Of a DNA stretch of 64,000 nt, positions 21,835 through 45,828 are shown in pieces. The notes under the pieces were generated by a model, which saw only the letters and a list, made by a program, of their open reading frames with translations, made no database searches and had not been told where the DNA came from. How positions within the stretch are numbered: position 1 is the stretch's first letter; every line of letters begins with the position of its first letter. This DNA is from a virus. The translations under genes were made by a program, and so were the position numbers. The DNA lies in the IMG/VR virus record IMGVR_UViG_3300034022_000278, positions 1-64,000 of that record, one strand, 5' to 3'.

Positions 21835-22140
21835 TTACAATGAAAAGATTTCTAGATTTAATCTATATCTTCCCCTTGTTTCTGCTGTCCGTATTAAGTC
21901 CCGCTCTTTTAGAGAAGCTAAATGCTTATCCAAAGTGGGAGGAGATATTCCTAACTTATTCATGATGGCAAGTTTATTTTGTTTATCTGCGTACCATAGA
22001 TTCTTTTCAAAATCTAATTGACGCATGATATAGAATAATACATGGAAGGTTCTATCGTTTGATTTTAATAATACGCTTTCCTTTGTATCTAAATACACTG
22101 CTACCATTTTTCTATTTTTATTATCTCTGTACTTATACAT
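21835..22140 (-). CDS. RepL-like winged helix-turn-helix protein, about 101 aa
   Basis: The domain runs MVAVYLDTKESVLLKSNDR, a helix (FHVLFYIMRQL), then the recognition unit (LGISPPTLDKHLASLKERD) and a basic wing (TAETRGRYRLN). This is the RepL/MarR-like winged helix found in plasmid replication proteins and phage regulators. I chose ATG 22140 over the more distal ATG 22167; a start at 22107 (MVAVYLD) is also possible, because a TATATTTG element ends 2 bases before the 22140 ATG. It lies just downstream of a palindromic site that it may bind. Confidence 0.65.
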   Translation of the reverse strand: MYKYRDNKNRKMVAVYLDTKESVLLKSNDRTFHVLFYIMRQLDFEKNLWYADKQNKLAIMNKLGISPPTLDKHLASLKERDLIRTAETRGRYRLNLEIFSL

Positions 22141-22142
22141 TG

Positions 22143-22150
22143 CAAATATA
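22143..22150 (-). promoter_or_regulatory. Bacteroidota-type -7 promoter element
   Basis: The minus strand reads TATATTTG, a match to the Bacteroidota TAnnTTTG -7 element, just upstream of the winged-helix gene. A TTTG lies 14 bases further upstream, shorter than the usual spacing, so the -33 box is doubtful. If used, the transcript would be leaderless or would favour the internal start at 22107. Confidence 0.4.
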
Positions 22151-22157
22151 CATAATT

Positions 22158-22227
22158 GATAGTACAAATATCATAATAATATAGATACTATCCAAATTTG
22201 ATAGTATAAATATACAAATAAGATAGT
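22158..22227. promoter_or_regulatory. Putative operator: palindrome and GATAGT half-sites
   Basis: A perfect inverted repeat, ATACTATC-CAAATTT-GATAGTAT, lies at 22185-22207. Further GATAGT half-sites lie at 22158-22163 and 22222-22227. All sit in the short gap between the RepL-like regulator and the exonuclease gene, overlapping the putative promoter. The arrangement fits an autoregulated operator; the winged-helix product is the obvious candidate ligand. Confidence 0.5.
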
Positions 22228-23030
22228 TAAATTATTGGATTTAGTATTTGGTGCTCTATCATTTTGAGGTACGTGCGGTTACTTACAGGGTAATTAGTTT
22301 GGCATTTGTGCTCTTTACATTGCAAGTAATATCTTCTTACTCCCATTGCAGTAGTGTAGCATTTAGTAACCCTTGGGTGTAGACTTCCACATTCTGGGCA
22401 AGCAAAGTTATCATTGCCGTAAAGTTTGCCGTAGTTAAACTGTGTCTTAGCGTAAGGTCTTAATTTTTGATACACTCGCTCTAAAAGTCTAACATCCTCA
22501 TCGCAGTATTTAACCATATCGTTAAGTGCATCTTCAGATTTCTCTTGGCATATTCTGTCCCACAATGTGTAATCAGTAGATATCTTCTGTCCTACTCCTA
22601 AGTATTTTCCTAGTTCATCTAGTTTATTAGAAGCAAAACTAAATTGTGACTTAGCTATTTTAAGAGTATCTATAGTTTCATATCTAGGGTTCATGTGTAG
22701 CCCGTGGAGGATGGCTCTTGTGCGTAACCATTTTAAATCAAATCTATCTCCGTTATGTGCTACTATTTGATTGGCTTTATTAAGCTCCTTGACAAAGTCC
22801 TGTATTAGAGTTTTGTCACACTGAGCATCATCCCATCTAAGATTATGAACTTCTTCCTCACCTTCCCACTTCCATGATATGCAGATTACAGAAGGGTACT
22901 TAATAATCTGATGTGGTTGGATAGAAAGATTATATCCTAATCTCCAAGCACTAACTATGAAATAAGAAACCTCTATATCATAGAACATTCTCTTTCTAAC
23001 GCTTTTAGTTTTACTTTTATTTTTGCTCAT
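22227..23030 (-). CDS. DEDD-type 3'-5' exonuclease with C-terminal zinc ribbon, 267 aa
   Basis: An RNase H-like exonuclease (DnaQ/YprB type). Motif I is YDIEVS (about residues 17-22), motif II is VAHNGDRFDLKWL, and motif III is MVKYCDEDVRLLERV with the final Asp. A C-terminal zinc ribbon follows (CPECGSLHPRVTKC, then YYLQCKEHKC), probably for nucleic acid binding. It is separate from the exonuclease domain of the phage polymerase. It is the first gene of the leftward block, beside the regulator, so it is probably expressed before the structural genes. Confidence 0.85.
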   Translation of the reverse strand: MSKNKSKTKSVRKRMFYDIEVSYFIVSAWRLGYNLSIQPHQIIKYPSVICISWKWEGEEEVHNLRWDDAQCDKTLIQDFVKELNKANQIVAHNGDRFDLKWLRTRAILHGLHMNPRYETIDTLKIAKSQFSFASNKLDELGKYLGVGQKISTDYTLWDRICQEKSEDALNDMVKYCDEDVRLLERVYQKLRPYAKTQFNYGKLYGNDNFACPECGSLHPRVTKCYTTAMGVRRYYLQCKEHKCQTNYPVSNRTYLKMIEHQILNPII

Positions 23031-23428
23031 ACTGTGCTTGTTTTTAACTTGTTCGTAAAGTTATGTAATAATTCAATATGATGAAGGAATAGTAGGCTAA
23101 TAATAATGTAAATATTATTAGGAATTTTGAATTATTATAGTTATGGGACGTACTATCATGTAAGTGGTAGTCCAACTATCAGTGCTTGTTAGGTTATTAC
23201 TATCACTCTGATGGTAGTAAGAGCCTACCAATTATGGTAGTAGAAAATTGTAACTAATTGTTATATAGTATTTTATGATTTTAGACTAATGTATAGGTAA
23301 ACCTACACAGTAGGTGCACTTGTACGAATGTATAAATGTAGCGCTGTTTAGCCACTTACCTTTAGATTATTTATAATTTTTTTTTTATATTTTTTTTGAT
23401 GCCATCAGTATATTATTATTGGGTGTGT

Positions 23429-23485
23429 GGTATCGGGAGTGGTTATTATTTATTTAGGATTGCTGTATGGTATCGCAAGTGGTTA
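23429..23485. repeat. Direct repeat GGTATCGSRAGTGGTTA, 40-base period
   Basis: Two copies of a 17-base sequence (GGTATCGGGAGTGGTTA at 23429-23445 and GGTATCGCAAGTGGTTA at 23469-23485) start exactly 40 bases apart, close to four helical turns. They sit upstream of the GC-rich ORF and a possible TAAATTTG -7 element at 23509-23516, as expected for paired activator or repressor sites. Confidence 0.5.
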
Positions 23486-23519
23486 CCACCTTAAACCAGA
23501 ACCCCTACTAAATTTGGGC

Positions 23520-23534
23520 GGGGGAAACACCCCC
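23520..23534 (+). promoter_or_regulatory. G5/C5 leader hairpin
   Basis: GGGGG, a 5-base loop (AAACA) and CCCCC form a strong short hairpin just after the TAAATTTG element and 24 bases before the ATG of the 107-aa ORF. It would lie at or near the 5' end of the transcript, where it could protect the RNA or control translation. Confidence 0.45.
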
Positions 23535-23557
23535 CCTATAACTCGTAACTCATAAAA

Positions 23558-23881
23558 ATGTCAACTATGAAATTAAATTTAGCAATTCTCGGTAACCTTG
23601 TTAAGGTATACGGAGCGCCATTATACGGAGCGACATCCGTTGAAGACGCAGGTACTATTGGTGCTAGCGAATACACGGTTATCGACAACAATACACTTAT
23701 GGTGATTGCAGACGGTAACACGATGTATTTCCCTATTCGACGTAGCGTTGTCGATGCGGGATTCACGGATGACCGTGTGTTCACAATCGGCATCTTCGAG
23801 GCCGAGCGTGACGCAAGCGGGGAGCGTGACGGCATTGCTTGGTCAGTGACCAAGGGTGCACGCAAGGTATTTGCGTATTAA
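23558..23881 (+). CDS. GC-rich orphan protein, 107 aa
   Basis: The product (MSTMKLNLAILGNLVKVYG...) is Gly/Val/Asp-rich with predicted beta structure and no recognised domain. Its base composition is by eye near half G+C, with CGT, GGC and GAC codons, unlike every neighbour. The start follows an A-rich leader (ATAAAA). Hairpins bracket the gene (23520-23534 and 23880-23908). A minus-strand frame over the same bases also stays open; I favour the plus strand because of the leader, hairpins and gene direction. It was probably acquired from another source. Confidence 0.6.
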   Translation: MSTMKLNLAILGNLVKVYGAPLYGATSVEDAGTIGASEYTVIDNNTLMVIADGNTMYFPIRRSVVDAGFTDDRVFTIGIFEAERDASGERDGIAWSVTKGARKVFAY

Positions 23882-23908
23882 GGAACGGGTGCGCAAGCAC
23901 CTTTCCTT
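23880..23908 (+). terminator. Hairpin with GCAA tetraloop ending the GC-rich gene
   Basis: GGTGC-GCAA-GCACC (23888-23901), capped by a stable GNRA tetraloop, is extended by AAGGAA/TTCCTT across a small internal loop. It starts at the stop codon of the 107-aa ORF. The following bases have only a weak T tract, so it may be an RNA 3'-end protecting stem as much as a terminator. Confidence 0.6.
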
Positions 23909-24064
23909 TATGCCTTAAACTTGTCATAGAACCATCGTCGAGCACTACGTGAGTGTGCTTGTTTAGTTACTTAACTCATTAATACTCAGAGATATGTGTG
24001 TAGTTAATGGTGTGGTTACTAAGCCATCATGGCTAAGAAACCCTAACTCTTAAAGAGTTGATAT

Positions 24065-24090
24065 GCCATATCCTTTAATAAGGGTATGGC
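24065..24090 (+). ncRNA. 11-bp hairpin in the non-coding array
   Basis: GCCATATCCTT, loop TAAT, then AAGGGTATGGC gives an 11-bp stem with one G-U pair, followed by TTAATTTAATT. The preceding 170 bases hold smaller hairpins (AACTCT-TAA-AGAGTT near 24044) and no ORF. It could end an upstream transcript or be part of a larger folded RNA. Confidence 0.5.
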
Positions 24091-24096
24091 TTAATT

Positions 24097-24179
24097 TAAT
24101 TAATTGTAGTAGAATAGTAAGTCCATTAAGTTGGTGATACACCAGCAACATTATGTTGTGTAACTACTACAATTAATTA
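24097..24179 (+). ncRNA. Structured RNA element closed by a 16-bp perfect stem
   Basis: TAATTAATTGTAGTAG (24097-24112) pairs perfectly with 24164-24179 around a 51-base interior. The interior can form GGTG-ATA-CACC and further short stems. No ORF lies inside. A perfect 16-bp closing helix in AT-rich intergenic DNA is unlikely by chance. The stem start (TTGTAGTA) resembles that of the elements at 24562 and 24667, suggesting a related set. Confidence 0.6.
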
Positions 24180-24301
24180 CTCTCATCCAAGCAGGAGAAG
24201 TTCTTCCACTTAGAGAAGAATATGACAAGCACTTTGAAATAGTAAGTGCCAAGGGTTGCAACCTTGTGAGAGTACTATTTATTAACATTTAAATTAAAGA
24301 A

Positions 24302-24511
24302 ATGTATTCACAGAAAAATATTACGAATCAAAGGTTCACTGTAAGATTTTGTGCTGTTGCAAATTATTTAGGATTTAAAAAGATTGGATCTTTTGAAAAA
24401 CTCCTTAATCAAATGCAGCCAAACAATAAAATTACATTTGGACCTAGTCATGTCCGAGTATGTAGATTACTCGCAGAAATAAATGACTTTAAAAAATATG
24501 AAGCTGAATAA
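24302..24511 (+). CDS. Small basic protein, 69 aa
   Basis: A Lys/Asn-rich alpha/beta product (MYSQKNITNQRFTVRFCAVA...). FLGFKK-like and SFEKLLNQMQ helices give it a weak resemblance to small nucleic-acid-binding proteins. An A-rich leader (TTAAAGAA) precedes the ATG. It is flanked on both sides by structured non-coding RNA elements. Function unknown. Confidence 0.55.
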   Translation: MYSQKNITNQRFTVRFCAVANYLGFKKIGSFEKLLNQMQPNNKITFGPSHVRVCRLLAEINDFKKYEAE

Positions 24512-24561
24512 TAGTAAGCTTCATATTTGTAATGCACCATTCTCACTTCCCAAAGAATGAG

Positions 24562-24645
24562 CAGTTGTAATCTAAGTAAGACAGATAGCCTAGGAGTGAT
24601 GCCTAGTGAAACCCTGATAGTTCAAACGTAGAGAGATTACAACTG
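24562..24645 (+). ncRNA. Structured RNA element closed by a 12-bp perfect stem
   Basis: CAGTTGTAATCT (24562-24573) pairs perfectly with AGATTACAACTG (24634-24645). The 60-base interior has a CTAGG/CCTAG hairpin and ends with GTAGAG before the closing strand. It lies just upstream of another long-stem element whose 5' arm also begins ACAGTTGTA. No ORF is inside. Confidence 0.6.
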
Positions 24646-24666
24646 AGTGCAGAGGGGTAATACATT

Positions 24667-24803
24667 ACAGTTGTAGTAAACTATGGGTTGAAATGTCCTG
24701 GGTAGGTAAGTAGTACATGGCACATTATAGCTGTGTTGCATATATCCTTTTTATAAGGCTCAGTCCCAAAATGTGCTATATAATACTAGTTTACTGCAAC
24801 TGT
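24667..24803 (+). ncRNA. Structured RNA element closed by a 17-bp stem, 137 nt
   Basis: ACAGTTGTAGTAAACTA (24667-24683) pairs with 24787-24803 over 17 bp with a single G-U wobble. Inside, GCACATT (24720-24726) pairs with AATGTGC (24770-24776), enclosing a CCTT/AAGG hairpin. The 3' arm runs into TTTTG. The nested helices and a wobble rather than a mismatch favour a folded RNA over a DNA palindrome. Confidence 0.62.
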
Positions 24804-24840
24804 TTTGTATTTATTTAACTTATACTTAAAAATTTAATTT

Positions 24841-24987
24841 ATGATGTTTGAAGATGCACAAGATATGTTTATGTTATACAGCATATCACCTGAATTAACG
24901 TGTACTTGTGATGAAGTTCATGAATGTCAACAATGTTGGGAAGAAAGAAAAGCTGACAGAGATGTAGCTGCTATTGAACCAATTTAA
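24841..24987 (+). CDS. Small Cys-containing protein, 48 aa
   Basis: Frame MMFEDAQDMFMLYSISPELT..., then CTCDEVHECQQCW, an acidic protein with four closely spaced Cys that could bind one zinc ion. The A-rich leader (TTTAATTT) and an uninterrupted frame between structured RNAs support it. The second ATG at 24844 could be the true start. Function unknown. Confidence 0.5.
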   Translation: MMFEDAQDMFMLYSISPELTCTCDEVHECQQCWEERKADRDVAAIEPI

Positions 24988-25214
24988 GAAATATATGTCA
25001 GTGTGGGTGATTCCTGTAACAGCTGGCTAAATACATGCATCTGAAATAATGATGTATTGTCGCTATCTACTAGCTATAAAAAAGACTAATCATCTTAGTA
25101 GAAAAGCATCGCCTTAAACTTAGTAATAAGAGAGGAAAGACTACCAACACAGTAAGATGCACGCATAAGCTTTTAATAGTTTGCTTATGTATTTTTAAAC
25201 TTAAACTTAAACTT
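24988..25214 (+). other. Non-coding stretch with hairpins and a terminator-like stem
   Basis: No ORF. Visible helices include AATACAT/ATGTATT (25030-25058), CTACTA/TAGTAG (25067-25101) and CATAAGC/GCTTATG (25164-25189) followed by TATTTTT. The last has the form of an intrinsic terminator. The stretch resembles the other structured intergenic segments of this region. Confidence 0.45.
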
Positions 25215-25367
25215 ATGAAAAGAAAGAATTTAGCGCATATATTTACAGGAATGTTTACTATATGTTTGTTATTAGGAGCAATCCTGATGATTGGTGGTAA
25301 TCACCTAGGAGATTTAATAGTAATATCTTCAGCTATAGGAGCAACAGCTACCTTTGCAATATCTTAA
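25215..25367 (+). CDS. Tiny membrane protein, 50 aa
   Basis: A basic start (MKRKNLAHIF) is followed by two hydrophobic helices (FTICLLLGAILMIGG and LIVISSAIGATATFAI) around a short NHLGD turn, a hairpin topology in the inner membrane. It starts 26 bases past a terminator-like hairpin. It could be a holin-like or superinfection-related protein; there is no direct evidence for either. Confidence 0.55.
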   Translation: MKRKNLAHIFTGMFTICLLLGAILMIGGNHLGDLIVISSAIGATATFAIS

Positions 25368-25372
25368 TTAAA

Positions 25373-25462
25373 ATTGAGCAGCAGATAATCTTATACTGTA
25401 ATGCTCAATAGACTTTATAAGTCAGTAGAATCCTCTTGTTATAGCTTAATCAAGAGGATTCT
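25373..25462 (+). ncRNA. Three tandem hairpins, the last terminator-like
   Basis: ATTGAGCA/TGCTCAAT (25373-25409), then GACTT-TAT-AAGTC (25411-25423), then AGAATCCTCTTG/CAAGAGGATTCT (25427-25462, a perfect 12-bp stem), spaced by only a few bases right after the membrane protein gene. The final one is followed by TTTAAAG. The middle 13-mer is repeated exactly at 26342-26354. Confidence 0.6.
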
Positions 25463-25501
25463 TTAAAGATATCACAATGAAACATCTAATAAATCAAAGT
25501 T

Positions 25502-28174: not shown

Positions 28175-28245
28175 AGTCAGGTGGTGTATTTGGTAAACAC
28201 AACTAGTTTTTAGGAGGATAGCAGGTTCGATTCCTGTCCTGGCTA
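28175..28245 (+). tRNA. tRNA-like sequence 2, anticodon arm shortened
   Basis: The acceptor AGTCAGG/CCTGGCT (7 bp, one G-U) with discriminator A, U8, D arm GTGT-ATTTGGTAA-ACAC, and T arm GCAGG-TTCGATT-CCTGT are all canonical. Only about 20 bases remain for positions 26-48, two or three fewer than needed. The sequence there (around TTTTTAG) does not form a 5-bp anticodon stem, so the anticodon is uncertain. CCA is not encoded. Confidence 0.5.
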
Positions 28246-44718: not shown

Positions 44719-45828
44719 CAATTAGGGCTCCTTATACAGTAATGTATATGTAAAATGTCTTAAATTGACGGGGACCCCCTAAAGTTTTATCTACTAAGCA
44801 TGCACCGTGAGGTAGTATGTGGCTGACTTAATTACTCAGGTATAGTAAAAAAGATAAAAATGTCCGAATGGGAAATCCGCAGCCAAATTTCTTGGTTATA
44901 TGATTTATTTTTGGTATATTGCAGTATAAATACTTACATATATGAAAACAGAAATAGAACAAAAAGTAATTGATTATTATATTACTGATAAGTTATCAGG
45001 TAAAAAGATTGCGAGTTTATTACAAATAAATGTAAAAACAGTTTTTGCAATTTTAAAAAGAAATAATGTAAAATCAAGGACTTTGTCTGAATCAACAATG
45101 AAATACACTTGTCAAGATGATTTTTTTAATGTTATAAACACAGAAAAGAAAGCATATTGGCTAGGAGTACTATTTGCTGATGGTAATATTACAAAAAAAG
45201 CAAGTAAATCGGGACAAATTATTTTTTCATCAAAAGATAAAGAATGGGTAGAACTATTTTTATTAGATGTTGGCTCAAATAATTCCCCCAATTGTGAATA
45301 TCATAAATTATTTAAAAAATATATATGGAAAGCTCAGATAACTTCTGCGCAAATGTATGATGATTTAAATAACTTAGGATGTACACCAGCTAAAACTAAA
45401 ACAATTAGAGTGCCTATATTAAATGATGCATTAATGCACCACTTTATTAGAGGATATTTTGATGGTGATGGTACAGTTGGTGTTTATAAAAATCTAAAAA
45501 ATAATGATTGGAAAATTATAAAGTCAGGTTTTTGTTCGGGCTCACAAGAATTTATTATTGACGTATTAAGTATATTACCAGTAAAAAATAAAACTATTAA
45601 ACATAGTAAAGAATGTTATATTACACAACATTCCTTGCAAGACACTTTTAATCTATTTGGTTACATGTATAAAGATTGTACTACATGTTTAGAAAGAAAG
45701 AGACAAGTTTTTATTAATTACTTAGACACATATAAACCAAGAAAGAGGTTCAACGACTACAATAGACCATCCTAATAAGGATGAAGGTATAGTCTGATCT
45801 CATGTGAAAGCATGAGTTAACAAAAATG
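44719..45828 (+). mobile_element. Group I intron with LAGLIDADG endonuclease
   Basis: The 5' site is GAGCT|CAATTAG; the downstream GGCTC pairs with GAGCT to form P1 with the expected U-G at the splice site. The intron ends in G (45828). The core has a P-like AATTGACGGGGACC, Q-like AATCCGCAGCC (44874-44884), R-like CAACGACTAC (45751-45760) and S-like AAGGTATAGTCTGATC (45784-45799). P7 forms between GACTA and TAGTC, P8 as CATCCT/AGGATG, and P9 as CTCATG/CATGAG (45799-45816). Precise removal restores the peptidase frame. Confidence 0.92.
44942..45775 (+). CDS. Intron-encoded LAGLIDADG homing endonuclease, 277 aa
   Basis: The N-terminal HTH (GKKIASLLQINVKTVFAILK) is followed by the LAGLIDADG-type motifs YWLGVLFADGNI (about residue 74) and FIRGYFDGDGTV (about 168). 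It would cut intronless alleles of the peptidase gene to drive homing. Its last codons overlap the intron core strands R/P7 and P8 (45751-45775), so sequence there serves both protein and RNA. It is paralogous to the minus-strand endonuclease at 43645. Confidence 0.9.
   Translation: MKTEIEQKVIDYYITDKLSGKKIASLLQINVKTVFAILKRNNVKSRTLSESTMKYTCQDDFFNVINTEKKAYWLGVLFADGNITKKASKSGQIIFSSKDKEWVELFLLDVGSNNSPNCEYHKLFKKYIWKAQITSAQMYDDLNNLGCTPAKTKTIRVPILNDALMHHFIRGYFDGDGTVGVYKNLKNNDWKIIKSGFCSGSQEFIIDVLSILPVKNKTIKHSKECYITQHSLQDTFNLFGYMYKDCTTCLERKRQVFINYLDTYKPRKRFNDYNRPS

Follow-up and report, generated by a model that had tools for sequence, protein, structure and literature searches.

A candidate array of phased operators and a putative autoregulatory operator of like motif beside a winged-helix gene in uncultured Crassvirales phages

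We analysed a stretch of viral DNA of 64,000 bases, hereafter the window, which corresponds to positions 1-64,000 of the 88,042-base record IMGVR_UViG_3300034022_000278. Judged by its terminase, the source of the window is an uncultured crAss-like phage of the Crassvirales. TerL has its top match in Cellulophaga phage phi14:2 (Steigviridae; 32.6% over 95%), with gut crAss-like phages next and weaker, and the portal protein matches phrog_6547. Genes are arranged on either side of a control region (Table 1). Leftward lie a winged-helix gene, small genes, TerL and the portal gene, and rightward lie small genes followed by DNA polymerase A, helicases and a primase. The GC skew changes sign at 22-23 kb, where the cumulative skew has its minimum, and again near 53 kb, tracking gene direction. 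Elsewhere in the window an endonuclease gene with a LAGLIDADG-like match (44942-45775) is found amid the replication genes, and an Rfam tRNA match at 28175-28245 scores 39.9 bits (cut-off 29); ARAGORN did not report this tRNA.

Table 1. Features of the control region and its flanks (window positions)
Feature	Position	Strand	Basis or remark
Winged-helix protein, 90 aa, candidate binder of all sites	21835..22107	-	conserved start MVxVYLDT
Putative -7 promoter box, TATATTTG	22143..22150	-	sequence
Operator site II, half-site TTTGTACTAT	22159..22168	-	motif conserved in relatives
Operator site I, ATACTATC-N7-GATAGTAT	22185..22207		palindrome, near-unique in record
Operator site III, half-site	22222..22227		22 bp from half-site at 22200
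3'-5' exonuclease gene (phrog_403), between the site clusters	22227..23030	-	family match
Promoter-like element, TTAGGAATTTTGAATTATTATAGTTATG	23118..23145	+	conserved; relatives often cTTGACATTGTAAAATATTTTAGTTATG
Array unit 1, CTATCA-N6-TGGTAG	23153..23170		sequence, unit searches
Array unit 2, degenerate, CTATCA-N5-TGTTAG	23176..23192		sequence
Array unit 3, CTATCA-N6-TGGTAG	23200..23217		sequence, unit searches
Array unit 4, CTACCA-N4-TGGTAG	23225..23240		sequence, score matrix
Second leader element, TATAGGTAAACCTA-N5-TAGGTGCA	23292..23318		conserved in relatives
Third leader element, GTGGTTACCACC...AACCCCTACTAAATTTGGGCGGGGG...CCCCCCC	23479..23537	+	conserved, just ahead of first rightward gene
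First rightward gene past the array	23558..23881	+	107 aa, without family match

The sequence-only reading of this DNA had pointed to a family of ACTATC/GATAGT hexamers in both gaps of the control region. All seven occur where it placed them, at 22158(-), 22187(+), 22200(-), 22222(-), 23152(+), 23175(+) and 23199(+), and the spacings of 23 and 24 bases that it gave for the divergent region are correct. The palindrome that it described at 22185-22207 is perfect, with 8-bp arms (ATACTATC-CAAATTT-GATAGTAT), and was the sole match with fewer than three mismatches when the 88,042-base record was searched allowing up to three. The same reading had named a background-level hexamer frequency as an outcome that would speak against it. 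The 64-kb window contains 50 hexamers against 42.3 expected, a number reached by 13 of 100 shuffles, and because this count is ordinary it tells against the claim on that reading's own terms. Although the window-wide count is ordinary, the hexamers are clustered beyond chance: four in 70 bp were seen in 0 of 1000 dinucleotide shuffles and three in 53 bp in 10 of 1000. The post-hoc choice of motif was checked on the window's 2014 reverse-complement-collapsed hexamers. A cluster of four in 70 bp exists for 19 of these, and three of the 19 also have a separate three-in-53 cluster 0.2-1.5 kb away, namely ACTATC, AATTTA and AATAAT, the latter two being low-complexity, unlike ACTATC.

In the right-hand gap the repeating unit is an 18-bp inverted repeat and not a bare hexamer, and a fourth unit is present there without an exact hexamer. 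In the left-hand gap, the hexamer at 22222-22227 touches the end of the exonuclease ORF. As we read these sites, the hexamer is half of the true unit, the inverted repeat ACTATCA-N6-TGATAGT.

An AlphaFold2 model of the product of the leftward gene, for which a longer, TTG-started ORF extends to 22167, is a compact winged helix (pLDDT 87.8, pTM 0.80) with a helix at residues 56-68 and two wing strands. By this predicted fold the protein is of the winged-helix DNA-binding type, a helix-turn-helix with a two-strand wing. The earlier label of RepL-like was dropped, as the RepL profile PF05732 matched nothing in the record at E ≤ 10 and did not match the winged-helix protein at E ≤ 0.1. The ArsR-type family PF01022 (HTH_5) gave a weak match across 26 residues (23.4 bits against a cut-off of 22), and the NCBIfam models listed were all far below cut-off, with the SdpR-type NF033789 at 19.4 bits against 100. 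Foldseek returned no PDB match to the model at E ≤ 0.001. SarX (5hs5) is similar in fold only (Z 8.3, rmsd 2.9, 73 aligned), and the SarX and CRP/NtcA fold matches, considered as possible identities, were taken merely as the common winged-helix arrangement. The best viral fold match is an unnamed protein, 71% identical, and the ninth is a crAss-like 'Replication protein' (E 9.4e-3, 19% identity). Protein searches for relatives gave 12 loci and then 48, the eight most diverged of which (L073-L080) have protein identities of at most 61%. Among genome_contigs, 18 stretches matched a pattern for such relatives and 0 were confirmed; the phage collection yielded none that was credible (a single match, E 0.08), and a profile run against 14 kb of phi14:2 found nothing credible (best E 1.6).

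The sites at the winged-helix gene's own promoter recur across these relatives. The sequence TAYATTTG is present at most 135 bp before the start codon in all 48 loci scanned, and the window's version, TATATTTG, fits the Bacteroidota -7 box consensus, TAnnTTTG. Ahead of the TATATTTG box, an upstream TTTGTACTAT or TTTTGACTATC is found in 40 of the 48 loci, the eight without this site II motif being L073-L080. Site II is fuller in several relatives, for example as the inverted repeat CTATCA-N5-TGATAG. Site III is likewise a fuller inverted repeat in six loci (L053, L055, L058, L061, L062 and L072), in which the three operator centres are at -113.5, -91 and -49.5 from the start codon, at distances of 22.5 and 41.5 bp. 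In L068 and L070 site I is the 20-mer ACTATCATGTTTGTGATAGT with perfect 7-bp arms, and the same 20-mer recurs among the array units of L045 and L050. The distant relatives L075-L080, which lack the operator, have AGAATA and TATTCT near the start codon, forming a perfect AGAATATATTCT in three of the six (L075, L076 and L078); in the four of this group that were aligned, the recognition helix LEKMIASLR replaces LDKHIASLK.

The right-hand array is similarly widespread. Its four units in the window have centres 22.5, 24.5 and 24 bp apart, and arrays could be extracted from 37 of the 48 loci. The relatives have about four repeats, spaced mostly 22-25 bp and positioned ahead of the rightward replication genes, with units that are CTATCA-N4..6-TGATAG or variants using CTGTTA, CTACCA or CTATAG. 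Many of these loci are close kin, and thinning leaves 22 non-redundant arrays including that of the window; the array of L032 is irregular and that of L048 is degenerate and was read by eye. Ten loci remain. The records of L044 and L060 end too soon, and the other eight are L073-L080, where no array was found: a degenerate unit search, run on all 48 loci, gave one weak pair, in L080, and in the seven diverged loci scanned (L073-L077, L079 and L080) spaced inverted repeats never formed a chain of at least three. In the clade formed by L040-L043, L046 and L047 the array units have become CTATAG/GTATAG-like and CATACC/GGTATG while the operator motif is unchanged. A further matching inverted repeat is present about 50 bp past the array in L053 (by eye), L058, L062 and L072 (G010:13836-13853, G009:22180-22197, G005:76861-76878), with no counterpart in the window's record. 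No second copy of the array units was found in the window, and a scan for kin with the pattern GTTAKGTTATTACTATCA returned 16 stretches, of which 5 had an array already known and 11 were unrelated by eye.

In the window the operator and the array are separated by the exonuclease gene. Among 24 loci tabulated, the array is at most 400 bp from the start of the winged-helix gene, with no intervening ORF of at least 100 aa, in 11; an ORF is inserted between gene and array in 12, and L049 has a longer gap but no such ORF. The inserted ORF is exonuclease-sized in 7 of the 12 loci and different in 5, where exonuclease identity was assigned by family match in the window and by eye in L009, L010 and L013. 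Because array and gene adjoin in 11 of the 24 loci and a varied ORF is inserted in 12, the two gaps of the window are probably one control region opened by insertion of a gene. The window's exonuclease gene shares 68.7% DNA identity over 299 bp with Flavobacterium phages. When the control region was compared with the phage collection by BLASTN, it matched 18 records, all of them Flavobacterium phages, and the best 10 of the 18 match the exonuclease only.

We assessed the specificity of the shared motif with patterns of differing stringency. The degenerate form CTRYYA-N6-TRRYAG has 27 matches in 8 records (approximately 402 kb). The control region accounts for 23 of the 27, and the reversed-pattern control matches twice; the degenerate form was derived from the arrays themselves, and its informative part is the scarcity elsewhere. 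The strict form CTAYCA-N6-TGRTAG matched in one of six records, hitting solely two array units of a 91.5-kb near relative, and its absence from the other five means that the strict form is not general. For the core ACTAT-N9/10-ATAGT, 12 of 18 matches are in the control region (none there in L048) and the reversed control has 5, a modest specificity. A score matrix trained without the window's clade placed array units first, second and sixth in the window and the palindrome seventh, with ranks three to five outside the control region. The best unit exceeded all 60 shuffles; the second did not exceed the best shuffle.

If a single regulator is served by both sets of sites, the motif should be shared by the two gaps, conserved and phased, as it is, and operator and array should also co-vary within genomes, which they do not. 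Such co-variation, convincing by eye in L053 and L055, was rejected on a test of 24 genomes, in which operators scored 13.13 of 16 against their own array and 13.06 against those of other genomes. Against the shuffled own array the mean was 11.65 and the maximum 13 (of 16). The near-identical stand-in for the window, L035, scored 13, no higher than the top score among 39 unrelated stretches (mean 11.3).

Immediately before the array, stopping 7 bases short of it, is the promoter-like element. Its form in many relatives is cTTG-N16-TAGTTATG, and in the window's copy TAG replaces TTG. A matrix that included L035 scores this copy at 22.4 and the next best in the window at 11.9, so that there is no near second copy; a pattern scan returned 3 contigs, all already known, and no further kin. 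Past the array the leader is AT-rich and non-coding. The second leader element can be read as TAGGTAAACCTA-N5-TAGGT, the arms of which change together, to ATCTA/TAGAT in L010 and ACCTT/AAGGT in L032, and the surrounding 23255-23380 folds with z -3.1 on the plus strand and -1.1 on the minus strand. The third element is strongly conserved across relatives as GTGGTTAnnACC...ACCCCTACTAAA..TTGG.CGGGG...CCCCC, and L038 and L047 have additional AGTGGTT copies upstream of it; no second copy of the element was found in the window, and shuffles fold as well as 23400-23545 does (z 0.5 and 1.0). Farther to the right, among small rightward ORFs, 23882-25480 contains long nested stems; for instance, a stem of 14 bp closes the stretch at about 24098-24178, and the arms that pair within 24650-24820 are long. 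Fold z-scores on the plus and minus strands are -5.2 and -2.7 for 23882-24090, -3.8 and -4.9 for 24085-24290, -2.5 and -3.6 for 24650-24820 and -5.7 and -5.0 for 25370-25480, with weaker folds at 24505-24830 (-1.3 and -2.6) and 24990-25215 (-0.3 and -1.1). These stems are possibly non-coding RNAs or terminators, and 23882-25480 has no Rfam match at gathering scores.

One DNA-binding protein acting on both gaps is the best reading of this locus, and to this extent the one-protein switch of the sequence-only reading is supported in part; its RepL label and an enrichment of the hexamer over the window are not supported. The repeats are inverted and helix-phased, 40 of 48 loci keep the motif ahead of the winged-helix gene, and 23 of 27 degenerate matches are in the control region. 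We think it reasonably probable that the hexamers are half-sites of operators for the winged-helix protein, whose dimers would act on both gaps in a change from early or middle to late expression. The analysis shows where the sites lie, how they are phased and conserved among relatives, how the genes are ordered, and a winged-helix model; that this protein is the binder, that it binds as a dimer, that each effect is repression, and the timing are what we infer. Dimers would bind two or three sites at the protein's own promoter, which would lie on the same face of the helix, since in relatives the centres are separated by about 22 and 42 bp. They would also bind the four array sites, 22.5-24.5 bp apart. 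The array lies just past the promoter-like element, where rightward transcription would begin, and would thus overlie roughly the first hundred bases of the resulting transcript. As it accumulates, the protein would limit its own promoter, at the head of the leftward packaging and structural genes, and would cover the start of the rightward replication genes, and in this way would serve the change from replication to packaging genes. Dimers at intervals of about two turns would fit a repressor of rightward transcription and of its own synthesis. Early, middle and late modules are reported for Crassvirales in the available text of PMC10136315 and PMC8375218, and the portion of PMC10136315 available reviews this temporal programme without naming the sites of any regulator.

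The array could instead be an iteron-type origin, a fairly unlikely alternative in which the winged-helix protein would be an initiator that uses the four repeats as iterons and shuts down its own synthesis via the operator. Plasmid Rep proteins bind iterons and repress their own gene through an inverted-repeat operator, and the locus likewise combines an inverted-repeat operator with repeats spaced by about two turns that have a common motif; the array units are, however, inverted and not plain direct repeats. The AT-rich, non-coding leader past the array and the replication genes downstream would suit an origin, whereas the promoter-like element that abuts the array would not. That the cumulative GC skew reaches its minimum at 22-23 kb is no more than suggestive, as the skew also tracks gene strand and singles out no origin. 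An initiator would also agree with the crAss-like 'Replication protein' among the viral fold matches. The available text of PMC10136315 and PMC7551546 credits crAssphage with two copies of RepL and calls the exact mode of Crassvirales replication unknown, and PMC7551546 describes the RepL of p-crAssphage, but PF05732 is unmatched in this record. It is unlikely that the protein is a bifunctional initiator-repressor, with self-repression via the operator and origin opening at the array coupled to the early/late change; if true, this would give a sequence-defined candidate origin and a copy-control circuit in a Crassvirales lineage.

It is distinctly improbable that another phage or host protein, such as a virion RNA polymerase subunit or some regulator of the host, binds the sites and that the winged-helix gene is a mere target. 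Such a binder would be compatible with the absent co-variation within genomes and with the virion polymerase that the available text of PMC10136315 and PMC8375218 reports to transcribe the early genes of a crAss-like phage. The sites, however, stay with the winged-helix gene whether or not a gene is inserted, and they were not found in the 8 relatives with the most diverged protein.

That the repeats are stems of a structured leader RNA transcribed rightward, an idea attractive on the plus strand in the window's nearest kin, fails over the wider set of arrays and is very improbable. The window's stretch does surpass shuffles in folding (z -3.2). In the window, L036, L037 and L038, units 1 and 3 have G.U without A.C pairs (with one other mismatch, in L037), and L008 shows an exchange of TAGG/CCTA to TATG/CATA. 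Across relatives, however, no covarying structure on one strand was seen. RNAalifold gave little for either strand of the 22 non-redundant arrays (-4.6 and -0.3 kcal/mol). No clear preference for a strand emerged: 17 of the 22 arrays reached z ≤ -2 on one strand and 13 did so on the opposite one, and the minus strand had the lower energy in 10. In 16 main-type arrays G.U pairs did not clearly outnumber A.C pairs (22 against 13; two-sided p 0.18), and Rfam has no match at the array.

Unless its array turns out to be an origin, a locus repressed by the winged-helix protein from both sets of sites would be a variation on known systems. As with lambda Cro/CI and phi29 p4, a small protein is encoded beside a divergent region, and inverted sites recur at two or more promoters with spacings in helical turns; here the candidate binder is a winged-helix protein in a Crassvirales phage, and the four-unit array is past a promoter-like element. 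ArsR/SdpR-type autorepressors are likewise small winged-helix proteins, to which the HMM similarity is weak, and here a phage gene is concerned. Iteron plasmids (RepE, RepA) also pair an operator at the regulator gene with motif-sharing repeats, 22-25 bp apart here, whereas the units of our array are inverted repeats, the protein has no RepL match and an origin role is putative. In the open-licence literature we found no paper on these sites. The sites of the sequence-only reading are confirmed and its interpretation is partly supported, and the proposal made here is sharper: phased operators in an array plus an autoregulatory operator of like motif, both kept across uncultured Crassvirales. 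It names a 90-aa protein and gives base-level positions for its probable sites in tens of uncultured phages, and with short probes of DNA both regulation and replication mode could be tested in vitro with no need for phage culture.
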